From assembly GCF_900111765.1 (NCBI RefSeq), contig NZ_FOIB01000009.1, positions 434,001 through 498,000 on the forward strand: 64,000 bases of DNA, in the 5' to 3' direction. Both the position numbers and the translations under genes were made by a program. Numbering within the stretch: the first letter of the stretch is position 1; every line of letters begins with the position of its first letter. The DNA is from Myxococcus fulvus (lineage in GTDB: Bacteria > Myxococcota > Myxococcia > Myxococcales > Myxococcaceae). Below the pieces are notes generated by a model. That model did not search any database and had not been told where the DNA came from. It was given only the letters and a program-made list of their open reading frames with translations. Positions 10,794-24,358 of the stretch are shown here, one piece after another.

Positions 10794-12239
10794 ATGTCGG
10801 TCATGCGCCATGGGACGCGGATGAGTGGGTGGTGCCTCACGTGGCAACGGATGGGGACGCTGGCGCTGCTGCTGCTGGCGCCCGGCGCGTTCGCCCAGGA
10901 GCCGGCGGCCCTGCCCGCCTTCTTGATGGAGCGACTGGAGATCAACCCAGGTCCCGGCCCCCTCGCGACGGGCGGTGGCACCGTGCTGCGCGCGGCCGAG
11001 CTCCGGGTGCTCATCCTGGGTCACTACCAGCACGAGCCCATGACACTCAACGCGAAGGGCGAGACGATGCCCATCCTGACGAGCCGCACAACGGGCGTGC
11101 TCGCGGTGGCGCTCGGCTTGAGCTCGCGGCTGCAGATCGACGCGCGAATCCCGGTGCTGACCCAGCGCGAGGGAGACGACCTGGCCTCACAGGGGCTGCT
11201 CGGGCCCACGCGGCACGGCGTGGGCTCTCCGCGCGTGGGCGCGCGGGTGGGCCTGCTGCGCACGGAGGAGGACGACGCGGTGGACCTCGCCTCGGAGGTG
11301 AGCGTCTATCTGCCGTTCGGGACGCAGGGCGCGTTCGCTCGGGGCGCCGACACGAGCATCCTGGCGCGCGTCATGGTGGGCGGCATGCTGGGCTCCATCC
11401 TGGCGCCGTCGTTCGAGCTGGGCGTGCTGGTGCGGCGCGGAGTCACCATCGAGGTCCCCACGCTGGAGGCGCGCGAGCTGGGCAGCGAGCTGCGCCTGGG
11501 CGCGGGCCTGATGACGACGGGGGCGCCGCTGCGCGCGGAGGTGGCGATCAACGCGGCGCTCTCCTGGAAGCAGGCGCGGGGCGCGGTGGAGGTGCTGGGC
11601 GGCGCGCGCTATGCGCCGCGCGAGGGCGTGGAGCTGTTCGCGCTCGGTGGCCTGGGCTTCGGCTCGGAGCCGGGCATCCCGCTGTTCCGCCTGGTCGCGG
11701 GCGTGGCGTTCAACTCGCTCCTGGGTGAGGACACGCGGCCCGACAGTGACACGAGCATCGTGCACGAGTCCGTGCCGCTGCCCACGCCCGCGCCTAACCG
11801 GCGCGTGTCGGACATGCAGGGCTCGATGATTCCCAACCCCGGCGAGGCCTCGCCCGTCGCGAACGTGTCCCGGGACAAGTTCGTGCTCGACGGCCGGGTG
11901 TACTTCCGGGTCGGCAGCTCGGAGCTGCCCGAGTCCTCGCCGGACCTGGAGCGGGCCGTGGAGCTGATGCTGACCAACCCGTCGGTGAAGCTGATGACGG
12001 TGGATGGACACACGGACGACTCGGCCACGGAGACCTTCAACCCACGGCTCGGTCGCGCTCGCGCGGAGGCCGTGTGGCGCTACCTGGTGGAGCGTGGTGT
12101 CTCTCCCCAGAAGCTGCGATTGCGGAGCTACGGCCCGGAGCATCCCGCACAGAGCAACGGAACCGTCGAGGGGCGCGAGAAGAACCGCCGGGTCGAGCTC
12201 CTCCTCATGCTGCCGACGAACCTGGAAGCCACGCCATGA
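10794..12239 (+). CDS. OmpA-family outer-membrane protein with beta-barrel-like N-domain
   Basis: The 481-aa precursor has a signal peptide whose hydrophobic core is followed by AFA-QE at residues 33-36. Residues about 60-310 are alternating beta strands of the outer-membrane-barrel kind. Residues about 365-475 form an OmpA peptidoglycan-binding domain with TVDGHTDD, the helix NPRLGRARAEAVWRYLV and the NRRVEL end motif, so the protein links outer membrane and cell wall. The start may instead be the ATG at 10821, which leaves a more usual signal peptide; both keep the same mature protein. The stop overlaps the start of the giant Ig-repeat gene (ATGA), so the two are coupled. It could support surface display of that protein; this is inference. 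Confidence 0.82.
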   Translation: MSVMRHGTRMSGWCLTWQRMGTLALLLLAPGAFAQEPAALPAFLMERLEINPGPGPLATGGGTVLRAAELRVLILGHYQHEPMTLNAKGETMPILTSRTTGVLAVALGLSSRLQIDARIPVLTQREGDDLASQGLLGPTRHGVGSPRVGARVGLLRTEEDDAVDLASEVSVYLPFGTQGAFARGADTSILARVMVGGMLGSILAPSFELGVLVRRGVTIEVPTLEARELGSELRLGAGLMTTGAPLRAEVAINAALSWKQARGAVEVLGGARYAPREGVELFALGGLGFGSEPGIPLFRLVAGVAFNSLLGEDTRPDSDTSIVHESVPLPTPAPNRRVSDMQGSMIPNPGEASPVANVSRDKFVLDGRVYFRVGSSELPESSPDLERAVELMLTNPSVKLMTVDGHTDDSATETFNPRLGRARAEAVWRYLVERGVSPQKLRLRSYGPEHPAQSNGTVEGREKNRRVELLLMLPTNLEATP

Positions 12240-15200
12240 AATCACTGAGATGGTTGCACCTGCTGACCTGCGTCGTGGCGTTGGGCGCGCACTCCGCGTT
12301 CGCCGAGGCGGATGTCTTCGGCCTGGGCGAGGCGCGTGACGAATCCCTCACGGTCCCCGCCAACTCGAGTCAGGTCATCAATCACTACGCGGCGGTGACG
12401 GGCCCGGTGCGCAAGGGCGACCGCGAGCTGCGCGTGGAGACGCTCCAGGGCTTCGCGGCCGGAGACCTGGTGATGGTGTTGCAGAGCGCGGCCGCGGGTC
12501 CCGTGGCCGCCCTGTCGCTCTCCACCTTCACGTACGGCCCGCGCGAGGAGAGCCCGCCAGGCCAGTGGGAGCTGGCGCGGGTGTCGCGCGCGAAGGACGG
12601 CGTGCTGCTGCTCGCGCGTCCGGTGCTCAATGACTTCGCCTTCCCGGGCACGCAGGTCATCCGCGTGCCCGAGTTCCAGAACGTCACCATCCACCCCACG
12701 GGGGAAGTGAGCGCGCGCGCCTGGAATGGTTCGTCCGGCGGCGTGGTGGCCTTCCTCGTCGCGGACACGCTGCACAACAACGGCGTCATCACCGCGAGCG
12801 GCGCGGGCCCGCGGAGCGGCTCGACGAGCGGCGGCGGCGTGGTCTTCTTCCGCGCGCGCAAGCTCACTGGCGCCGGTCGCATCGAGGCCGACGCGCGGGC
12901 CTGGCCGTGGGAGCTGGAGGGGCTCACCCAGGGCGGCGCGGGCGGCAGCATCTCCGCGCGGCTGGTGGAGGGCGCGGACTGCGAGGCGCTGCTGGCGAGG
13001 AGCGCGGGCAGCGTGCTGCTGCAGGCCGCGAGCCTCCGGGGCTGCCCGGTGTTCGTGGAGTCGGACGTCTCGGGCGCCAAGGCCTTCGCGGCGCGAGCCG
13101 GCGATGAAGGTGGCGCGACGCTCGTGGAGCACGGGCTCGTCATCCCGCAGCGTCCGGTCATCACCGCTCCGGGAGAAGGCGCCAACGTGAAGGCCCGGTC
13201 CCCGCGCGTCACGGGCACGGCGGACCCGGGCGCCACCGTCCACGTGAAGCTGGGCAACACCGACCAGCCCACCACGCCCGAGCGCGAGTTGCCCGCCGCG
13301 GTGGTGAGCGAGTCCGGCGCGTTCTCCATCGAGGTGCCCGGCCGCCTGGAGGATGGCCTGTACGCCGTCACGGCGCACACGGAGGTCGAGGGACTCGCGA
13401 GCCCCACGAGCGACCCGGTCTACTTCTCCGTGGAGGCGCTGCTCGCCCCCGCGCGTCCCGTCATCGAGGTTCCCGTGGCGGACGCGAAGGTGGGCGTGGC
13501 CGGCACGGGCTTCTCCGGCACCGCGGAGACGGACAGTACGGTGACCGTCACGGTCGGCACGCTCGAGTGGGAGGCCCTCACGGGCGCGGATGGCCGGTGG
13601 TCGGTTCCGGCGACGACGGACCTCGATGATGGCACGCACACCGCCTCCGTCACGGCCACGAACGAAGACAACGAGACCGGGCCGGCCGCGACCGTCACCT
13701 TCCAGGTCGATACGACGCCGCCGGGCGCGCCCGTCATCTCCGTCCCGGTCGCGAGCGCCCAGGTGGGCACCGCCGGCACGGGCTTCTCCGGCACCGCCGA
13801 GGCGGGCAGCACGGTGAGGGTCACCGTCGACGGCACCACGTGGACCGCCGTCACAGCCGCGGGGGGCACCTGGTCCATTGCCGCCCAGACGACCATGACG
13901 GAGGGCAGCCGCACCGCCTCCGTCACCGCCACCGACACGTTCGGCAACACCAGTCCGCCCTCGACCGTCACCTTCACCGTCGACAAGACGGCGCCGGCCC
14001 GGCCCATCATCACCACGCCCGCGGCGAACGCCCAGGTGGGCACGGCCGGCACGGGCTTTGCCGGCACCGCCGAGGCGAACAGCACGGTCACCGTCACGGT
14101 CGGTGCCCTCACGTGGAACGCCACGACGACCGCGGGAGGCGCCTGGTCGGTTCCCGTGCAGACGACCATCGAGGAGGGAAGCCGCACCGCCTCCGTCACC
14201 GCCAGGGACGCCGCGGGCAACGTCAGCTCCGCGGCGACGGTCATCTTCACCGTCGACATCACGGCTCCGGCGCGGCCCGTCGTCACGACCCCCGCGGCGG
14301 GCTCCACCGTGGGCACGGCCGGCACGGGCTTCTCCGGCACCGCCGAGGCGGGCAGCACGGTGACCGTCACAGTCAGCAGCGAGTCGTGGACGGCCGTCAC
14401 CACCGCTGGTGGCGCCTGGTCCATCCCCACGCAGACGACCCTTCCGGAGGGCAGCCAGACCGCCTCCGTCACCGCCACGGACGCGTTCGGCAACGTCAGC
14501 ACCGTGAGGACGGTCACCTTCACCGTCAACAAGACGCCCGCCGCCACGCCGGTCATCAGCGTGCCCGCCGAGGGCGCCGTCGTCGGCCCGACGGGGCTGA
14601 CCTTCTCGGGGACGGCCACCGCCACGCATCAGGTGCGGGTGAGCCTGGACGGCAACCTGGTCGACACCGTCACGGTGCCCGCCACCGGACGCTGGAGCGT
14701 GCCGGCCAACAGCACGCCCGCCCACGGAAGCCACGCCGTCACGGCCATCGCCACCAACGCCATCGGCAACACCAGCGCCACCGCCACGCGCACCTTCACC
14801 GTCGACGCGACGCCTCCGGCGAGCCCCATCGTCACCACGCCCACCGCGGGCCAGGTGGTGGGCAAGAGCGGCACGGGCTTCTCCGGCACCGCCGAGGCGG
14901 GCAGCACGGTGACCGTCACGGTCGGCGGCAACACCTGGACGGACACGGCCGCCGCCGATGGCACCTGGTCCGTTCCGACGAAGACGACCATCGCGGAGGG
15001 AAGCCGCACCGCCTCCGTCACCGCCACCGACACGTTCGGCAACGTCAGCGCGGTGACGACGGTCGCGTTCACTGTCGACACCACGAATCCGGCGAGGCCC
15101 GTCGTCGCGACGCCCGTGGAAGGCTCCACCGTGGGCATGCCCGGCACGGGCTTCTCCGGCACCGCCGAGCCGAACAGCACGGTGACCGTCACGGTCGGCT

Positions 15201-18200
15201 CCCTCACGTGGACGGCCCCGGCCGCCGCCGCGGGGGGCGCCTGGTCTGTCCCCGTCCAGACGGACATCCCCGCGGGGTCCCGCGTCGCGTCCGTCACCGC
15301 CACCGACGTCGCGGGCAACGTCAGCTCCACGGCGACGGTCAACTTCACCGTCAACAAGACGCCCGCCAGCGCGCCCACCATCACCGCGCCCACCACCGCG
15401 ACGCCGGTGGGCCCGACGGGGCTGACCGTTTCGGGGGCGGCCACCGCCACCAACCGCGTGACGGTGAACCTGGACGGCAACCTGGTCGACACCGTCACCG
15501 TGGCGGCCAACGGGCGCTGGAGCGTGTCCGTCAACAGCACGCTCAGCGAGGGCACGCACACCCTCACCGCCTTCGCCACGGATGGGATTGGCAACACCAG
15601 CTCCACCGTCACGCGCACCTTCACCGTCGACGCGACGCCGCCAGTGAAGCCCGTCGTCACGACGCCTGCCCCGGGGACCCGGGTGGGAAGGACCGGCATC
15701 AGCTTCTCCGGCACCGCGGAAGTCGGAAGCCAGGTGCGGGTCACCGTCGGCAGCGCGTCGTGGACGGACACGGCCGCCGCGGGCGGCGGAGCCTGGTCCA
15801 TCCCCGCGCAGACGACCATCGCGGACGGCAACCACACCGCCTCCATCACCGCCACGGACACCGCCGGCAACGTCAGCGAGGCGACGACGGTCAGCTTCAT
15901 CATCGACACCACGCCTCCCGGCGTGCCCGTCGTCACGACGCCGACCGAAGGCGCCGTGGTGGGCACCGCCGGCACGGGCTTCTCCGGCACCGCGGACGCC
16001 AACAGCACCGTGACCGTCACGGTGGGCACCTTCACGTGGAGCGCCACGACGACCGCGGGTGGCACCTGGTCCATCCCGGTGAAGACGAACATCCCCGACG
16101 GCGCGCAGAGCGCGTCCGTCACCGCCTCGGACAGCCTCGGCAACGTCAGCACCGCGAGGACGGTCCACTTCACCGTCAACAAGACGCCCGCCGTCGCGCC
16201 CACCATCAGCGCCCCCGCCAACAACTCCGTGGTGGGCCCGGCCGGAACCCCGTTCACGGGGACGGCCACGCTGGGCAACGAGGTGACGGTCTACCTGGAC
16301 GACGTGCTGCTCGGCACCGCCACGGCGGCGGCCAACGGACAGTGGTCGGTGAGCTTCAGCGGAACCCTCACGGAGGGAACGCACAAGGTCACCGCCGTCG
16401 CCACCAACGAGCTGGGCAACAGCAGCTCCACCACCACGTCGAACTTCACGGTCGACCTGACGCCTCCGCCCGCTCCAGTCATCGAGACGCCCGCCACGGG
16501 CGCTCGCGTGGGCACGGCCGGCACGGGCTTCTCCGGCACCGCGGTCGCGGACACCTTCGTGAGGGTCTCCGTCGGCAGCGCCTCGTGGACGACCACCACG
16601 GCCGCCAACGGCCGCTGGTCCATCGCCGCGCAGACGAGCCTCTCGGATGGCAGCCGCACCGCCTCCGTCACCGCCACGGACCCCGCGGGCAACACCAGCA
16701 CGGCCACGACGGTGACGTTCATCGTCGACACGGTGCCTCCGGCCGCGCCGGTCATCGACACGCCCACCACCGGCGCCCGGGTGGGCCCGGCGGGCACGGG
16801 CTTCTCCGGCACTGCCGAGCTGGGCACCCTGGTGACGGTCAACGTCGGCGCGCTCGCCTGGACGGCCCCGACGGGCGCGGATGGCCGCTGGAGCGTCGCG
16901 ACGACGACGGCCATCCCGGATGGCGCGCAGACGGCCTCCGTCACCGCCACCGACGAGACCGGCAACGTCAGCGGCGCCACGGAGGTCCTCTTCAACGTCG
17001 ACACCCAGAAGCCCGCGCGGCCCCTGGTGGAGGTCCCCGCCGAGGGCGCCCACGTGGGTCCCGGGGGCACGGGCTTCTCCGGCACCGCCGAGGCGAACAG
17101 CACGGTGAAGGTCGTCGTGGGCGCGCTCGAGTGGACGACCACGGCCGGCAGCAACACCGTCTGGTCCATCTCGACGAAGACGGACATCCCCGAGGGCCCT
17201 CGCACCGCCTCCGTCACCGCCACCGATGCCACCGGCAACGTCAGCGACGCGCGTGAGGTCCACTTCACCATCGACAAGACGGCGCCGGGCGAGCCGGTCA
17301 TCGTGACGCCCGCCGCGGGCGCTCGCGTGGGCACGGCCGGCACGGGCTTCTCCGGCACCGCCGAGGTGGGCAGCACGGTGAAGGTCGTCGTGGGCGCGCT
17401 CAACTGGAGCGCCACGACCAATGGGGATGGCGAGTGGACCATCGCGCCGGTGACGACCATCGCCGACGGCAACCGCACCGCATCCGTCACCGCCACCGAC
17501 GCCGCGGGCAACGTCAGCGCCGCCGTGACGCGCTCCTTCACCGTCGACACGACGGCGCCCGCCATCCCCATCATCGAGACGCCCATCGGAGGCGCCCAGA
17601 TTGGCGTCGCCGGCACGGGCTTCTCCGGCACCGCCGAAGCGAACAGCACGGTGAAGGTCGTCGTGGGCGCGCTCAACTGGAGCACCACCGCGGGACCCGA
17701 CACCCGGTGGACCATCTCCGTGCAGACGAACATCCCGGATGGCAGCCGCACCGCCTCCGTCACCGCCACCGACGCCACCGGCAACGTCAGCAGCGCCGCC
17801 CAGGTCACGTTCAACGTGGACACGACGAAGCCCGACGTGCCCGTCATCGTGACGCCCGCCAGCGGAGCCCGCGTGGGCGTCGCCGGCACGGCCTTCAGCG
17901 GCACCGCCGAGCCGGCGAGCCGGGTGGAGGTCGTCGTGGGCACGCTGTCGTGGACGGCCACGGCCGGCTCCGACGGACAGTGGACGGTTCCGACGAAGAC
18001 GAACATCCCGGATGGCGAGCACACCGCGGTGGTCACCGCCACCGACGCGCTCAACAACAAGAGCGACCCGGCGACGCGCCTCTTCTCCGTGGACACCACG
18101 CCTCCGGCGAAGCCCAGCATCACCACTCCCAGGGCCGACACCGTCGTGGGGACCGCGGGCACCATCATCGAGGGCGAGGCGGAGGCCGGAAGCACGGTGG

Positions 18201-20161
18201 TCGTCACCATCAACGGCGTCGCGGCCCCCGCCGTCCAGGCCGGCGCCAGCCGCATCTGGACCCTGCCCACGCAGGTCTTCACCACCAGCGGCATCTACAA
18301 CCTGAGCGTCACCGCCACCGACGCCACGGGGAACAAGAGCGAGGCCACCGTCGACACGTTCCGGGTGGACGTCACCCCTCCGAACGCGCCCGTCATCCTG
18401 CTGCCGAACTCCGGCGTCCTGGTGGGCAGCGCGGGCGTGGACTTCTCCGGGACGGCCGAGGCGGGCAGCACCGTGGAGCTCTTCATCGAGGGCAACGTCC
18501 GCATCAACGCCCGGGTGGTCGCGGGCGCCAACGGGACGTGGGTCATGACCAAGGTCACCGCCCTCCCCGGCGGCGAGCACACCGTGACGGCCAAGGCGAC
18601 GGACGCCGCGGGCAACATCAGCCCCGCCTCCAATGGCATCGACCTGGAGGTCGACATCACGCCGCCCAACCGCCCCAGCATCACCTATCCCGTGGATGGG
18701 ACGGCCATCACCTCCGCGCGCCCCACCATCACCGGCACGGGTGACGTGGGCACCACCATCATCCTCTCCATCGACGGAGACGAGCGCGGCGGCGTGCTGA
18801 CCACGACGGTGGGAGAGAGCGGGACCTGGTCCTTCACCTCGCCCACGCTGTCGCAGGGTCTCCACGACCTCCAGGCGAGGGCGCGGGACACGGCGGCGAA
18901 CCTGAGCGAGCCGTCCGTCCCGGTCCGCTTCACGGTGGACTCCGGCTTCAACCCTCCGCTGCTCGTCACGTCGCCCAAGGAGGGGGATGTCCTCACGCTC
19001 CCCAGGCCGCGGTTCATCGGAACCTCGGAGCCCAACAGCACCGTCTCCATCACCCTGGACGGCAAGCCGCTCGCGACCGTCACCGCGGACGCGTTGAACA
19101 ACTGGAGCTACGAGCCCGTGGAGCCCCTGGCCAACGGCGTCCACGAGTTCACCGTGGAGGCGAGGGACGCCGCGGGCAACACGTCGCGGATGGCCCTGCG
19201 CAGGTTCACCCTGGACCTGGAGGACCCCACGCCCCCGGTGCTGTCGTCGCCGGCGCCGGGCGCGCTCTTGCGCTCCCGCAGGCCCTTGATTCGCGGCACG
19301 GCCCAGCCCCAGTGCCGGCTCACCGTCCACCTGAACGACCAACCCCAGACGCCGACCATCACCGTCAACGGCGCGGGTGAGTGGTCCTTCACGCCCACCG
19401 CCGACCTGACCGAGGGCGCGTACACCGTCACCGCGGACTGCCTGGATGCGTTCGACCGGCGCGGAGAGAAGGCCGAGGCGCGCACCTTCACGGTGGACGC
19501 CACCGCGCCGGGAGCGCCGCTCATCATCACCCCGACGGAGGGCAGCATCCTCGGCAGGAGCTTCGACACGATTACCGGCACGGCCGAGGCGGGCACGACG
19601 CTCACCGCGGAGCTCAACGGCCTGGTGGTGGGCAACGCCATGGCCAATGATCGCGGCGAGTGGACGCTCGTCGTGGACAAGGCCACGGTGCACGGCGACC
19701 AGGCCCTGCGCGTGTACTCGGTGGACGCCGCGGGCAACACGGGCACCCGCTCCGACCCGCGCCTGTTCCGGCTGGACTTCATCCCCCCCGTGACGACGTT
19801 GACTGGAGGCCCCACGGGCACCAGCACGCTCGCCAACGTCACCTTCACCCTGGACACCTCCGAGGACGTCGCCGGCTTCCGGTGCTCGGTGGACGGCAAG
19901 GACCCGGAGCCCTGCGACAAGGAGCTCACGCTGCGCAACCTGGCGGAGGGAGACCACACGCTGGACGTCTGGGCGACGGACTTCGCGGGCAACGTGGAGG
20001 TGGCTCCCGCCCATCGCGCCTGGCACACCATCCGCCCCAGTCTGGTGGAGGGCGGCGGCGTGGGCTGCGCGTCGACGGGCGGCAGTCCCCTGGATGTGTT
20101 CGGGTGGCTGTTGTGCGTCGCGGCGCCGGGCCTGGTGGCGATGTTCCGCCGCCGGCGCTGA
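12236..20161 (+). CDS. Giant AgmC-like surface protein: Ig-like repeats and MYXO-CTERM-like tail
   Basis: The 2641-aa protein starts at the ATG overlapping the OmpA gene stop; the frame is open further upstream but the signal peptide (cleavage near AFA-EA, residue 24) begins here. Residues about 25-300 form a beta-rich head with GLGEARD and a PGTQVIRVPEF segment, like the head of proteins annotated AgmC in myxobacteria. Then come about 24 Ig-like domains of 90-95 residues, each with a GTGFSGTAE-type strand and ending in FTVD plus TPP, and one different final domain. The last 35 residues have GC, a hydrophobic helix and RRRR, matching a MYXO-CTERM sorting signal. It is probably exported and held on the cell surface. 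A gliding-motility role is known only for the AgmC name, not shown here. Confidence 0.85.
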   Translation: MKSLRWLHLLTCVVALGAHSAFAEADVFGLGEARDESLTVPANSSQVINHYAAVTGPVRKGDRELRVETLQGFAAGDLVMVLQSAAAGPVAALSLSTFTYGPREESPPGQWELARVSRAKDGVLLLARPVLNDFAFPGTQVIRVPEFQNVTIHPTGEVSARAWNGSSGGVVAFLVADTLHNNGVITASGAGPRSGSTSGGGVVFFRARKLTGAGRIEADARAWPWELEGLTQGGAGGSISARLVEGADCEALLARSAGSVLLQAASLRGCPVFVESDVSGAKAFAARAGDEGGATLVEHGLVIPQRPVITAPGEGANVKARSPRVTGTADPGATVHVKLGNTDQPTTPERELPAAVVSESGAFSIEVPGRLEDGLYAVTAHTEVEGLASPTSDPVYFSVEALLAPARPVIEVPVADAKVGVAGTGFSGTAETDSTVTVTVGTLEWEALTGADGRWSVPATTDLDDGTHTASVTATNEDNETGPAATVTFQVDTTPPGAPVISVPVASAQVGTAGTGFSGTAEAGSTVRVTVDGTTWTAVTAAGGTWSIAAQTTMTEGSRTASVTATDTFGNTSPPSTVTFTVDKTAPARPIITTPAANAQVGTAGTGFAGTAEANSTVTVTVGALTWNATTTAGGAWSVPVQTTIEEGSRTASVTARDAAGNVSSAATVIFTVDITAPARPVVTTPAAGSTVGTAGTGFSGTAEAGSTVTVTVSSESWTAVTTAGGAWSIPTQTTLPEGSQTASVTATDAFGNVSTVRTVTFTVNKTPAATPVISVPAEGAVVGPTGLTFSGTATATHQVRVSLDGNLVDTVTVPATGRWSVPANSTPAHGSHAVTAIATNAIGNTSATATRTFTVDATPPASPIVTTPTAGQVVGKSGTGFSGTAEAGSTVTVTVGGNTWTDTAAADGTWSVPTKTTIAEGSRTASVTATDTFGNVSAVTTVAFTVDTTNPARPVVATPVEGSTVGMPGTGFSGTAEPNSTVTVTVGSLTWTAPAAAAGGAWSVPVQTDIPAGSRVASVTATDVAGNVSSTATVNFTVNKTPASAPTITAPTTATPVGPTGLTVSGAATATNRVTVNLDGNLVDTVTVAANGRWSVSVNSTLSEGTHTLTAFATDGIGNTSSTVTRTFTVDATPPVKPVVTTPAPGTRVGRTGISFSGTAEVGSQVRVTVGSASWTDTAAAGGGAWSIPAQTTIADGNHTASITATDTAGNVSEATTVSFIIDTTPPGVPVVTTPTEGAVVGTAGTGFSGTADANSTVTVTVGTFTWSATTTAGGTWSIPVKTNIPDGAQSASVTASDSLGNVSTARTVHFTVNKTPAVAPTISAPANNSVVGPAGTPFTGTATLGNEVTVYLDDVLLGTATAAANGQWSVSFSGTLTEGTHKVTAVATNELGNSSSTTTSNFTVDLTPPPAPVIETPATGARVGTAGTGFSGTAVADTFVRVSVGSASWTTTTAANGRWSIAAQTSLSDGSRTASVTATDPAGNTSTATTVTFIVDTVPPAAPVIDTPTTGARVGPAGTGFSGTAELGTLVTVNVGALAWTAPTGADGRWSVATTTAIPDGAQTASVTATDETGNVSGATEVLFNVDTQKPARPLVEVPAEGAHVGPGGTGFSGTAEANSTVKVVVGALEWTTTAGSNTVWSISTKTDIPEGPRTASVTATDATGNVSDAREVHFTIDKTAPGEPVIVTPAAGARVGTAGTGFSGTAEVGSTVKVVVGALNWSATTNGDGEWTIAPVTTIADGNRTASVTATDAAGNVSAAVTRSFTVDTTAPAIPIIETPIGGAQIGVAGTGFSGTAEANSTVKVVVGALNWSTTAGPDTRWTISVQTNIPDGSRTASVTATDATGNVSSAAQVTFNVDTTKPDVPVIVTPASGARVGVAGTAFSGTAEPASRVEVVVGTLSWTATAGSDGQWTVPTKTNIPDGEHTAVVTATDALNNKSDPATRLFSVDTTPPAKPSITTPRADTVVGTAGTIIEGEAEAGSTVVVTINGVAAPAVQAGASRIWTLPTQVFTTSGIYNLSVTATDATGNKSEATVDTFRVDVTPPNAPVILLPNSGVLVGSAGVDFSGTAEAGSTVELFIEGNVRINARVVAGANGTWVMTKVTALPGGEHTVTAKATDAAGNISPASNGIDLEVDITPPNRPSITYPVDGTAITSARPTITGTGDVGTTIILSIDGDERGGVLTTTVGESGTWSFTSPTLSQGLHDLQARARDTAANLSEPSVPVRFTVDSGFNPPLLVTSPKEGDVLTLPRPRFIGTSEPNSTVSITLDGKPLATVTADALNNWSYEPVEPLANGVHEFTVEARDAAGNTSRMALRRFTLDLEDPTPPVLSSPAPGALLRSRRPLIRGTAQPQCRLTVHLNDQPQTPTITVNGAGEWSFTPTADLTEGAYTVTADCLDAFDRRGEKAEARTFTVDATAPGAPLIITPTEGSILGRSFDTITGTAEAGTTLTAELNGLVVGNAMANDRGEWTLVVDKATVHGDQALRVYSVDAAGNTGTRSDPRLFRLDFIPPVTTLTGGPTGTSTLANVTFTLDTSEDVAGFRCSVDGKDPEPCDKELTLRNLAEGDHTLDVWATDFAGNVEVAPAHRAWHTIRPSLVEGGGVGCASTGGSPLDVFGWLLCVAAPGLVAMFRRRR
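13150..20037 (+). repeat. Tandem array of about 24 Ig-like domain coding units (270-285 bp each)
   Basis: The coding units repeat in phase, each starting near the codons for P-x-x-P-V-I-x-x-P and ending near the codons for F-T-V-D. Units 2 to 17 are very alike at the DNA level, with ggcacgggcttctccggcac recurring nearly unchanged, while units 18 to 24 have drifted and the last domain before the tail is a different Ig-like type. The gradient suggests that the central part expanded or was homogenised most recently. Confidence 0.9.
13985..16456 (+). repeat. Higher-order three-domain repeat, three units of 822, 825 and 825 bp
   Basis: Inside the Ig array the domains follow an A-A-B pattern three times. 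Units begin at 13985, 14807 and 15632 and the pattern would continue at 16457. The B domains start with KTPA at 14531, 15356 and 16181, exactly 825 bp apart, and carry a shared GNLVDTV-type loop in the first two that other domains lack. This points to duplication of a 275-codon block on top of single-domain duplication. Confidence 0.85.
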
Positions 20162-20992: not shown

Positions 20993-21017
20993 CGCCCCCT
21001 GCCCTGCTCAGGGGGCG
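20993..21017 (-). terminator. Possible terminator hairpin after the partner-switching operon
   Basis: Arms cgccccctg (20993-21001) and cagggggcg (21009-21017) form a perfect 9-bp stem with a 7-base loop. The hairpin covers the stop codon of the last operon gene. No clear U-run follows on the minus strand, so the role is less sure. Confidence 0.45.
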
Positions 21018-21430
21018 CGGGAGACCGCCTGCGTCTGGGCGCGGAGGTCCGCCACCCAGGCGCGGGCCTGGTCCTCCGTGTCCACCATGCCGAATGGCGC
21101 GCCGCGCGTCCGCCCCAGCAGCATGGAGGCGCGGCCCATCATGTTCGCCATGGTGCGCAGCGAGAAGCTGGCACCGAAGATGACGGTGCCGGCGAAGGGC
21201 ATCACCTCCGGCGTCTCGCTCAAGATGCGGCGCGCCTCGGAGGTGATGCTCGAGGTCCGCCGCGAGTCATTGATGAGATAGAGCGTGGGGTGCGTCTCGC
21301 GCAGCTCCGCGGCCACGCCGGCCAGGTCGTGGATGAGCTTGACGTCGAACGGGCCCACGTTGACGAGCCGCACGATGTCCGGGGACTCGAGCCACACCTT
21401 GCTGTCACCGAACGTCCACATGCGAACCAT
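21008..21430 (-). CDS. Small SpoIIAA/STAS-like protein, last gene of partner-switching operon
   Basis: This 140-aa soluble protein has the alternating strand-helix pattern of SpoIIAA-like or STAS-like domains: MWTFGDSKVWLESPDIVRL, then a LIHDLAGVAAELRE helix, a LYLINDSRRTSSI strand-loop, and a VIFGASFSLRTM strand-helix. Asp and Ser residues in the central loop lie where anti-anti-sigma proteins carry the phosphorylated Ser or Thr, but the match is weak. GGAGGAG precedes the ATG at usual spacing, and the gene starts 30 bp after the RsbR-like gene. It may be an output antagonist for the kinases upstream in the operon; this is inference from position. Confidence 0.65.
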   Translation of the reverse strand: MVRMWTFGDSKVWLESPDIVRLVNVGPFDVKLIHDLAGVAAELRETHPTLYLINDSRRTSSITSEARRILSETPEVMPFAGTVIFGASFSLRTMANMMGRASMLLGRTRGAPFGMVDTEDQARAWVADLRAQTQAVSRAP

Positions 21431-21460
21431 GTCGTGTCTCCTCCAGGGACCGCGCGGGCT

Positions 21461-22132
21461 TCAGCGGTGGGCGCCCGCGCCGCGGCCATTCAGGTGCAGG
21501 AAGCAGTCGCGCAGGCCTTCCTTGAGGCTGCCGAGCGTCTTCACCTCCCGCAGGTCCACGCCAATCTGGACCAGCGTCTGAGCAATCACCGGGCTGATGC
21601 CCGTCACCACGCAGTAGGCGCCGAGCAGCCGCGCCGAGCCCACCATCTTGATGAAGTGGTTGGCCGTCATCGTGTCCACCACCTCCACGCCGGTGAGGTC
21701 GATGATGACGCAGCGGGCCTTGCCCTGGACCACGCGGTGCAGGAGCCGCTCGGTCATCTCCATGGCGCGCTGGGTGTCCACCACGCCGACGATGGGCAGG
21801 GTGAGGATGTCGTCCCACAGCTCGATGATGGGCGTGGACAGGTCCCGGATGGCGTCGCGCTGACGGTCGATGGTGGCCAGCTTCTCCTCCAGCTCCCGGT
21901 GGCTCGCCGCCAGGCGCGTGAGCGCCTCCTCGTGCTCGCGGCGGGTGGAGGCCAGCTCGCGCACGAAGATGTTGAGCGTCTCCTCGAGCGCCGCCAGCTC
22001 GTCCTGCTCGCGGATGTCGATGGTGGTGCGCTCGGCGGAGAACTCCCCCACCGAGATGAGCGACAGCACGTCGATGATGCGGCCGATGCGCTCGGGCGAG
22101 ATGGACAGCGGAGCGAACGGGGTGTGGCTCAT
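21461..22132 (-). CDS. RsbR-type stressosome protein with C-terminal STAS domain
   Basis: The 223-aa protein has a short N-terminal helical part instead of the globin-like sensor of classical RsbR, then a coiled-coil linker at about residues 45-90 and a STAS domain from about residue 95. The STAS domain has the RsbR signatures: LPIVGVVDTQRA, VVDTMTANH with the Thr equivalent to the first phosphorylation site, and GISPVIAQTLVQIGV with the second Thr. In the known system RsbR and RsbS build the stressosome that holds RsbT until stress. The start is well set by AAGGAGGTG right upstream. It lies 21 bp after the RsbS-like gene. Without a sensor domain the signal it reads is unclear. Confidence 0.85.
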   Translation of the reverse strand: MSHTPFAPLSISPERIGRIIDVLSLISVGEFSAERTTIDIREQDELAALEETLNIFVRELASTRREHEEALTRLAASHRELEEKLATIDRQRDAIRDLSTPIIELWDDILTLPIVGVVDTQRAMEMTERLLHRVVQGKARCVIIDLTGVEVVDTMTANHFIKMVGSARLLGAYCVVTGISPVIAQTLVQIGVDLREVKTLGSLKEGLRDCFLHLNGRGAGAHR

Positions 22133-22153
22133 GGCACCTCCTTCGGACGACGG

Positions 22154-22642
22154 TCAGACGACGGTGCGCGGGGACGCCGGAGCGACGAGGCCGAGCATCT
22201 CGTCGGCCAGCCGCTGCGCCTCCTCCCGCTCGGACTCCTCCGTGCGCGCGCCCACCGCCCGGACGCCGAGCAGCGACAGGCCCTCCTCCAACCCCAGCGC
22301 CGTCTCCACGCCGTCCAGTTGGATGCCCATGCTCTGCAGCGTGAGCGCCACGTCCGCGCCCATGCCGCACAACACCGTGCGCGTGCCCATCAACCGGGCC
22401 GAGCCCGCCAGCCGCGCCAGCACCGCGCACAGGTGGCTGTCCACCAGCCACAGCCCGGAGATGTCCACCACCATCCCCTTGGCGCCGGTGCGCTGGATGT
22501 CGCGCAGCACGTCCGAGCAGAGCTGCGCGGCCTGCGCGTCGGTGATGTCGCCCTGCAGGGGGACGATGAGCTGCCCCCACAGCGGGATGATGGGGATGCG
22601 CGACAGGTCACGCGAGGACGGGGGGGATTCGGGGTGGCTCAT
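22154..22642 (-). CDS. RsbS-type stressosome scaffold STAS protein
   Basis: This 162-aa protein is a STAS domain with the RsbS order: IPIIPLWGQLIVPLQGDITD, then VVDISGLWLVDSH, where the Ser after VD matches the phosphorylated Ser of RsbS, then LMGTRTVLCGMGADVALTLQSMGI. It extends beyond the STAS domain by about 45 residues with an acidic helix and a proline end. The ATG overlaps the stop of the RsbX-like gene (ATGA), and GGAG lies upstream within that gene. It is expected to pair with the RsbR-like protein next door and to be phosphorylated by an RsbT-like kinase. Family knowledge gives the role; the sequence shows the conserved sites. Confidence 0.85.
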   Translation of the reverse strand: MSHPESPPSSRDLSRIPIIPLWGQLIVPLQGDITDAQAAQLCSDVLRDIQRTGAKGMVVDISGLWLVDSHLCAVLARLAGSARLMGTRTVLCGMGADVALTLQSMGIQLDGVETALGLEEGLSLLGVRAVGARTEESEREEAQRLADEMLGLVAPASPRTVV

Positions 22643-23208
22643 GAAGGCTCCACGTCCGCCACCAGCACGGTGGCGTCATCGGTGGCACGGCCGAAGCGCT
22701 CCAGGAGCACCGCGCAGGCCGCGTCGGGGGGCTGGTCGCGGACCTGCTCCAGGTCCAGGCGGAAGCTCAGCCCGTCTGAGAAGAGGACCAGCCGGTCCTT
22801 GGGCAACAGCGGCGTGGACACGGTGCGCAGCGTCCGGAACGACTGGCCCAGGATGCCCGGCGTGGGGAGCACCGGCACCCTGGTGCCCAGCGTGCGCAGC
22901 TCCACGTTGCCCACGCCGCCCGCGTGCAGGACGCTCCCGTCGAACAGGGCCAGCATCACCGCGGAGCCCCGGCCGTGCTTGAGCGCCACGTGCAGCGCGG
23001 CGACCAGCTCCTCCACCGAGGACGTCAGCGGCATCCGCGTCAGGCACTGCGTGGCGGACGCCGTCGCCAGGGCCGCCGCGGGGCCGTGGCCCAGCGAGTC
23101 CACCACGGCGAGCAGCGTGACGCCCGAATCGGTGCGCACCACCACGCCGTCGCCGTTCTCCACTTCGCCCGGCTTGGGCCTGGTCAGGTGGGCGACGGAG
23201 AGCCTCAC
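22639..23208 (-). CDS. RsbX/SpoIIE-type PP2C serine phosphatase
   Basis: The 189-aa protein is a compact PP2C-like phosphatase with the metal-site Asp in ENGDG, the VVDSLGHG motif (classical DGLGHG, here with Ser for Gly), a LFSDGLSF motif and the final ATDDATVL. No sensor domain is present, like RsbX, which dephosphorylates RsbR and RsbS and resets the stressosome. The start is GTG at 23208, overlapping the stop of the RsbT-like gene as GTGA and preceded by GAGGTG. The frame is open further upstream, but that part is only a shadow of the neighbour. An RsbU role is less likely because there is no N-terminal RsbT-binding domain. Confidence 0.82.
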   Translation of the reverse strand: MRLSVAHLTRPKPGEVENGDGVVVRTDSGVTLLAVVDSLGHGPAAALATASATQCLTRMPLTSSVEELVAALHVALKHGRGSAVMLALFDGSVLHAGGVGNVELRTLGTRVPVLPTPGILGQSFRTLRTVSTPLLPKDRLVLFSDGLSFRLDLEQVRDQPPDAACAVLLERFGRATDDATVLVADVEPS

Positions 23209-23894
23209 AGCCACACCTCGAACTCCACCTGGGTGCCGGCGGGGCCCGTCTTCACCTCGAACCTGTCCGCCAGCCGCTTGACGCCCAGGATGCCCAGGCC
23301 CATGCCCGTCTTGCTGCGGTAGGTGCCGGACAGCACGCGCTCCAGCTCGGGGATGCCCTTGCCCTGGTCCTCGGCGCGCACGCGCAACAGCTTGCGCGGC
23401 GTCTGCACGGGGATGAGCTGGATGGTGCCGCCGCCGGCATAGGAGACTTGGTTGCGCGCCAGCTCGCTCACCGCCGTCGCGACCTTCTGGCACTCGTAGC
23501 CGCGGCCGCCCATGGCCTCACACACGGCGCGCGCCGCGAGCCGCGCCTGGCTGGCGTCCGCCTCCGTGCGCACCTGATACGTCGTGGGCCGCGCCTCCAC
23601 CGGAGCGCTGGACGCGGACAACGGCTCGCGCAGGCCCAGGCCGCTGGGCACGGTGGACGTCGCCAGCAGCGCCTTGAGCCGCGCGGACAGGTCCGGCCGT
23701 CGCGACGGGTCCACGAAGTGCCGCGTGGCCGGCTCCAGCGCCTCGATGACCCGGGGCAGCTCCGCCGAGCCCAGCGTGTCCGCGCTCAACCGCATCGGCT
23801 CCAGCGTCCCTCTGAGCACGAGCCTCGCGGCGGTCTCCGACATGAAGTGCTGGAGCACACCGAGCAGCTGCGAACTGGTCCCACCACGACTCAC
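23205..23894 (-). CDS. RsbT-type serine kinase with extra N-terminal domain
   Basis: Residues about 90-229 form a GHKL ATPase-kinase domain with N-box SELARN, G1 box DQGKGI and G2 region GMGLGILGVKRL, which matches RsbT (GLGxGLxGVKRL) rather than RsbW. An extra N-terminal part of about 80 residues, helical with no known domain, precedes it. In known systems RsbT phosphorylates RsbS and RsbR and then leaves to activate RsbU; no RsbU is encoded here. The start is GTG at 23894, overlapping the upstream gene stop (GTGA); its stop overlaps the RsbX-like start. The longer frame to 24134 is rejected as antisense-frame shadow of the neighbour. Confidence 0.82.
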   Translation of the reverse strand: MSRGGTSSQLLGVLQHFMSETAARLVLRGTLEPMRLSADTLGSAELPRVIEALEPATRHFVDPSRRPDLSARLKALLATSTVPSGLGLREPLSASSAPVEARPTTYQVRTEADASQARLAARAVCEAMGGRGYECQKVATAVSELARNQVSYAGGGTIQLIPVQTPRKLLRVRAEDQGKGIPELERVLSGTYRSKTGMGLGILGVKRLADRFEVKTGPAGTQVEFEVWL

Positions 23895-24358
23895 CACGGC
23901 TTGCTTGCCTCCAGCTTCATGCGCTTGCGTGCGAACACTTCCAGGCCACCGCCCTCGCGGTTGGACACGCGGACCTCGTCCGTCAGTCGCCGCACCGCCG
24001 CGCCGCCCTCGCCCAGGCTCTCTCCGGGCAGCGGCCCTGGCCGGCCCGCGCGGCCCAGGAAGAGCCGCTCCGGCTCCACCATGCCCGGGCCCCTGTCGCG
24101 CGCGCGGATGCACAGCCAGCAGTCCTCGCGCCACAGCTCCACCGTGCCGCCCACCCGCGTGTGGCGCACCAGGTTGGTGGCCAGCTCGCTCACCACCACC
24201 GCCACCTCCGCGCTGGACGCCGCCGACAGCCCCGACTCGCGCGCGAAGCGCCGGCTCAGCGAGGCCGCCACCACCGCGTCCACGGGATGTCGGACGGTCA
24301 CCGACAGGTGCGGGTCCAGCGAGGCGGAGGCAGGCAGAGGCGACGGCAAAGGGCTCAT
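23891..24358 (-). CDS. RsbW/RsbT-type anti-sigma kinase, first gene of partner-switching operon
   Basis: The 155-aa protein is a single GHKL ATPase-kinase domain with N-box SELATNLVRH, G1 box DRGPGM and a G2 segment GEGGAAVRRL. The last is nearer to the RsbT-like LGxGLGAVRRL than to classical RsbW. It would phosphorylate an anti-anti-sigma or STAS partner. The ATG at 24358 is chosen because the PLPSPLPASAS leader fits; a GTG at 24436 would add 26 residues. No strong ribosome site is seen for either. It is the first of six coupled genes; the promoter should lie in 24359-24621. There is no sigma factor gene nearby, so the target is unknown. Confidence 0.78.
   Translation of the reverse strand: MSPLPSPLPASASLDPHLSVTVRHPVDAVVAASLSRRFARESGLSAASSAEVAVVVSELATNLVRHTRVGGTVELWREDCWLCIRARDRGPGMVEPERLFLGRAGRPGPLPGESLGEGGAAVRRLTDEVRVSNREGGGLEVFARKRMKLEASKPW

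Follow-up and report, generated by a model that had tools for sequence, protein, structure and literature searches.

A putative sigma-independent stressosome module with an extended RsbT-like kinase in Myxococcus fulvus and other Myxococcota

The window analyzed here, a stretch of 64,000 nucleotides from Myxococcus fulvus, carries six minus-strand genes at positions 24358-21008, transcribed in the order g1 to g6, which we designate W, T*, X, S, R and G6. The first gene, W (23891..24358), encodes a 155-residue HATPase_c_2 kinase that resembles RsbW and SpoIIAB and falls outside the RsbT clade, and is followed by T* (23205..23894), which encodes a 229-residue RsbT-like kinase extended by an additional domain at its N-terminus. 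The product of X (22639..23208) is a 189-residue, single-domain PP2C phosphatase of the SpoIIE family, similar to RsbX, and that of S (22154..22642) is a 162-residue RsbS-like STAS protein. R (21461..22132) encodes a 223-residue RsbR-like protein composed of a weakly HAMP-like N-terminus, a helical linker and a STAS domain, and G6 (21008..21430) a 140-residue protein with a predicted SpoIIAA fold. A preliminary description of this DNA had placed a six-gene module in this interval, and all six genes were indeed found at the expected positions and on the minus strand, each with an unbroken frame and conserved motifs. The genes had also been described as all coupled, which is correct for the first four, joined by 4-nt overlaps (GTGA at g1/g2 and g2/g3, ATGA at g3/g4), but not for the last two junctions, where gaps of 21 nt (g4/g5) and 30 nt (g5/g6) are present, each harboring a GGAGG-like site. 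In the same window, on the plus strand, a very long gene (12074-20161, a frame of 2695 aa) encodes tandem repeats of about 100 residues with an Ig-like look, with a hydrophobic stretch and an RRRR tail at the end.

The proposed RsbR-, RsbS-, RsbT- and RsbX-like identities were borne out by matches in Pfam and to PDB sequences. X matches the Pfam family SpoIIE (1e-8) and displays the Asp motifs VVDSLGHG, FSDGL and TDDATVLV in its sequence. S matches STAS (Pfam, 3e-9) and the PDB sequences of RsbS structures (1e-20 to 1e-16, with B. subtilis RsbS at 1e-20), and the RsbS phosphoserine position is both aligned and conserved (VDS). Likewise, R matches STAS (Pfam, 6e-14) and the PDB sequences of stressosome RsbR proteins (up to 4e-33), and its T154 and T186, which align with Listeria RsbR, are invariant in 13 sequences (R and 12 relatives). 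The conserved serine of S and the two threonines of R are presumably the residues phosphorylated in Bacillus RsbS and RsbR. The sensor domain of RsbR is globin-like in Bacillus and Vibrio; at the N-terminus of R the Pfam search returned no globin match and a weak one to HAMP (E=0.08). The missing globin does not exclude that R belongs to a stressosome, because the N-terminal domain of RsbR is known to vary. The preliminary inventory, accurate for the local genes, missed a distant second RsbR, here RsbR2, which is 65% identical to g5 (G000:C1:1472298-1473587; L047:4275-5591) and is followed by a gene encoding a 198-aa V4R-like protein (a weak Pfam match, E=0.11). The other STAS proteins of the genome comprise one weakly STAS-like protein and a stand-alone one in an mraZ-like cell-division cluster, flanked by mraZ- and mraW-looking genes (L046:5242-5628, G000:C2); of three more matches, one looks like a SulP transporter.

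The additional kinase that had been noticed at the front of the module corresponds to W, a HATPase_c_2 protein (Pfam, 4e-11) lying outside the RsbT clade with its motifs intact: E58 and N62 of the N-box, D88-x-G90-x-G92, and G116 and G118 are invariant in the family alignment. T* matches the same family (6e-11) over residues 112-225 only, and its kinase residues E144, N148, D176, G178, G180, G199 and G201 are likewise invariant in the alignment of its family. Both proteins, inspected for a defect that would render one of them non-functional, retain the N-box Glu and Asn and the Gly motifs. They also head the HATPase_c_2 matches of the genome, where third place is taken by a histidine kinase as judged by its sequence. 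The RsbT-like identity of T* had been correctly assigned in the preliminary description, but the extra N-terminal region of about 100 residues was overlooked. This region is predicted to consist of a four-helix domain (residues ~1-80) and a disordered linker (~83-96) preceding the kinase domain (104-229), and in the structure model the 10-residue blocks of the segment 11-80 have mean pLDDT values of 88-96, with values below 50 in the segment 83-96. No Pfam family was found for the N-terminal domain in 27 diverse members, and PDB sequences, searched with a profile, returned no convincing match, only chance-like ones to helical and designed proteins. The four-helix prediction raised the idea of an RsbU-like RsbT-binding domain, which was rejected on sequence given that no RsbU match was obtained in Pfam or PDB; this comparison was made at the sequence level, the fold search with T* being dominated by its kinase domain.

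In the ATPase tree, which is built on few alignment columns and leaves many forks unresolved, the RsbT-type domains, T* included, all group in a single clade (SH-aLRT 99), and the majority of W proteins, including that of the window, form a Myxococcota clade of their own (SH-aLRT 90). The main clade of ATPase-PP2C fusions is separate (SH-aLRT 99), and the W proteins of three loci (L105, L109 and L194) are placed elsewhere, on long branches. The possibility that W is the detached half of an ATPase-PP2C fusion was rejected, since the tree places it in a separate clade. What looks new at this locus is a variant, namely the four-helix N-terminal domain of T* combined with a W kinase from a clade particular to Myxococcota.

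The SpoIIAA-like character attributed to G6 is upheld at the level of the fold, both by the predicted structure and by relatives, but not by Pfam, where the protein has no match and hence none to STAS. Its AlphaFold model has a mean pLDDT of 86.9, and the best Foldseek matches, of modest score, are 2q3l (a SpoIIAA-like fold, E 1e-3) and SpoIIAA itself (1h4z, target TM 0.65); relatives of G6 match the SpoIIAA-like family PF11964 and DUF7793. A Ser or Thr at the start of helix 2, which we take to be the position phosphorylated in SpoIIAA, is nearly invariant in the family, being replaced by Ala in one paralogue and by Pro in the protein of locus L150. SpoIIAA and RsbV are the usual substrates of W-type kinases. 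About three paralogues of G6 are encoded elsewhere in the genome.

Full-length T* is found in Myxococcus, Pyxidicoccus, Citreicoccus, Sorangium, Minicystis, Paraliomyxa and many myxobacterial MAGs. At the 39 loci outside the Myxococcus group, which were collected through full-length T* and for which all counts depend on thresholds (20 bits generally, 45 for ATPases), S is present within 4 kb in 34, X in 35 and R in 30, a separate second ATPase in 29 and G6 in 7. The order W-T*-X-S-R of the window is shared by Paraliomyxa (L136) and two MAGs (L173 and L184), and other T* loci are arranged as R-S-T*-X-W, T*-X-S-R-W or S-T*-X-W-R-G6. The sixth gene of the two MAG loci was considered as a possible G6 relative and rejected, the profile comparison not being significant. 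The search for the same gene set in relatives, suggested in the preliminary description, showed that W-T*-X-S-R recurs in distant myxobacteria and that G6 is absent at most T* loci. The arrangement is not a one-off, for the gene set, whose recurrence in Myxococcota had been overlooked, is conserved in relatives and so cannot be put down to chance. A Myxococcus-type W-T*-X-S module with 69% identity is also present in a record titled Comamonas sp. KCTC 72670 (BNCN01000003.1, locus L130), of which the organism name looks wrong, and the 12 listed genomes (9.4-10.8 Mb) of one genus of the same family, genus g5 in our set, have no T* match.

The genome, of 10.8 Mb and with Myxococcus and Pyxidicoccus species among its genus mates, was searched family by family. 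In agreement with the preliminary description, neither a sigma factor nor RsbU was found near the module. None of the 56 Sigma70_r2 matches in the genome lies near it, and a scan of about 120 neighbourhoods from the phylum (L080-L199), with models built from the sigma factors of the window genome itself, brought up no linked sigma gene save for an unrelated ECF-type match at a distance of about 3 kb (L109). These results bear on the alternative that W is an anti-sigma factor for a sigma factor encoded elsewhere, with G6 (or S) as the antagonist and a transcriptional output in trans. W is of the SpoIIAB/RsbW type and partially matches the RsbA anti-sigma model, although far under the cut-off, the genome holds the 56 Sigma70_r2 matches, and the RsbV/SpoIIAA fold of G6 would fit an antagonist of W. 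Nevertheless, a dedicated sigma factor for W is expected to be linked to it in at least some genomes, and with the neighbourhoods as they are we regard this alternative as unlikely.

The genome-wide search for an RsbU yielded a single further SpoIIE-type phosphatase matched over the full length of the domain, a dCache-HAMP-SpoIIE protein (C5:581905), but it does not possess the RsbU N-terminal domain; two further partial SpoIIE matches lie in proteins that read as PrpC/Stp-like PP2C phosphatases. Being the only other protein of its type with a complete domain, the dCache-HAMP-SpoIIE phosphatase could be thought to act as RsbU in trans. However, its input region is of the dCache-HAMP kind, and the protein is kept in genomes devoid of S and R and was not detected in two genomes that have both. 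We rejected it as RsbU on the grounds that it is not co-inherited with S and R, and consider such a role very improbable.

Within the genus, RsbS and RsbR are encoded in the same 19 of the 27 genomes, fragments of both are found in one more (G076) and neither is present in the remaining seven. The RsbR2/V4R-like locus, although far from the module, follows the same distribution, occurring in exactly those 19 genomes with remnants in G076, and a short V4R-like match of partial length is present in two genomes without S. Mapped onto a tree of the neighbouring GATase and dnaK genes, this distribution corresponds to two separate co-losses of RsbS, RsbR2 and the V4R-like gene, too few for a statistical test. 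Because two lineages of the genus lost the RsbR2/V4R-like pair along with RsbS, the pair probably serves as an input to the stressosome of the module.

T* is kept in 26 of the 27 genomes, including seven that are without S and R or have only fragments of them, and W is kept, at least in part, in six of these seven. Wherever S and R were lost, X has also disappeared or survives as a remnant. The M. xanthus group and G085 have lost X, S and R or carry broken copies of them, and in two genomes W is truncated or missing; the persistence of T*, mostly with W, after loss or breakage of X, S and R was seen at loci L238-L242, L094 and L128 (M. xanthus group, G085 and G012). Since T* is retained without S and R, it may act outside the stressosome, or the locus may be decaying in those genomes. 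The dN/dS of T* is 0.36-0.52 after loss of S and R against 0.12-0.27 otherwise, but that of the neighbouring GATase is also higher (0.11-0.25 against 0.06-0.12), and relaxed selection on T* was set aside as inseparable from this background. These losses might suggest that the module is vestigial in the lineage of the window as well and in the course of being lost, which is hardly credible given its six intact frames with conserved motifs and the dN/dS of about 0.05-0.28 in intact modules.

The stressosome, a switch that senses stress, is a 1.8-MDa pseudo-icosahedral complex from which the T kinase is released upon a signal. We favor, with a probability of roughly 70%, the reading that the module encodes a sigma-independent stressosome, a Myxococcota variant in which an RsbR/RsbS core would hold T* and be reset by X. 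The orthology of R and S and their conserved phosphosites, the kinase motifs, the linkage at the 39 loci and the co-loss with RsbR2 all argue for it. Based on homology and on the conserved residues, we hypothesize that R (g5), RsbR2 and S (g4) form the STAS core that holds T*, that in response to a signal T* would detach from the core after phosphorylating S and R, and that X would dephosphorylate both proteins, thereby resetting the core. For the output we infer two possible routes, which may operate separately or together: free T* could engage a target through its N-terminal helical domain, and W and G6 could constitute a second partner-switching pair that relays the signal to a target in trans. 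The absence of G6 from most T* loci, its several paralogues and the uncertainty of its phosphosite speak against the second route. The earlier conclusion that the output must be in trans or non-transcriptional stands. More tentatively, the module could represent a phylum-wide class of stressosomes in which T*, equipped with an output or oligomerization domain of its own, would pass the signal on to a second kinase and to a protein of the SpoIIAA fold, sigma factors playing no part, the output being non-transcriptional or of another kind. If this is true, the class would combine two coupled partner switches without any sigma factor. The targets of sigma-less stressosomes in Gram-negative bacteria are largely open, and the in vivo work found concerns only Vibrio. 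A compact gene set that recurs in the phylum, a dedicated N-terminal domain in T* and a clear pair of kinase and SpoIIAA-fold protein make the question of output approachable, and the RsbR2/V4R-like pair hints at a possible input.

Stressosome modules had been said in the preliminary description to end usually in RsbU and a sigma factor, a generalization that does not hold: the eight-gene operon rsbRSTUVW-sigB-rsbX seems confined to Bacillales, and the four-gene rsbRSTX, which has no sigB, is conserved widely and followed downstream by many different partners (PMC9237108). As this sigma-less form is the widespread one (PMC9237108), the missing sigma factor and RsbU are the rule and not the exception. 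The module of the window shares with the SigB operon of Bacillus and Listeria the phosphosites of the R/S/T core and RsbX, but has no RsbU, no sigma factor and no RsbV recognizable as STAS by Pfam, and differs in gene order and kinase architecture. Among myxobacteria, putative RsbRST clusters of Sorangium cellulosum have already been marked among the phosphatase genes, and the consulted part of that study, in which a single SpoIIE-like phosphatase is reported for M. xanthus, in accordance with the loss of X seen there, does not describe the N-terminal domain of T*, the W kinase or the gene set (PMC2887360). A literature search, with subscription journals mostly outside its reach, returned no paper naming both stressosome and Myxococcota.

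The RSTX modules of Vibrio vulnificus and V. brasiliensis are alike in having RsbR, RsbS, RsbT and an RsbX-type phosphatase and no SigB, with the output conveyed by other partners (PMC9237108, PMC4976288). In contrast to them, the order here is W-T*-X-S-R-G6, T* has an N-terminal helical domain, R is without globin, W is encoded as a kinase of its own alongside a SpoIIAA-fold protein, and no adjoining two-component gene was found. The second kinase noted at the front of the module is real, and an ATPase beside RsbX is also common elsewhere, in a form fused to the phosphatase. RSTX modules with an ATPase-PP2C fusion (L102-L104, L112-L114, L175 and L188) occur in other myxobacteria, Proteobacteria and Cyanobacteria, mostly in the canonical order R-S-T followed by the fusion of ATPase and RsbX-type phosphatase, and also contain two kinase-type domains. 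In canonical RSTX modules of several phyla (L102-L104, L159, L174, L175, L181 and L188-L199), a large gene after the fusion starts with a further ATPase domain of the RsbT-like kind, placed close to T* in the ATPase tree. The fusion modules differ from that of the window in that their second ATPase is joined to the phosphatase and belongs to another clade, and in that their RsbT has no N-terminal domain.
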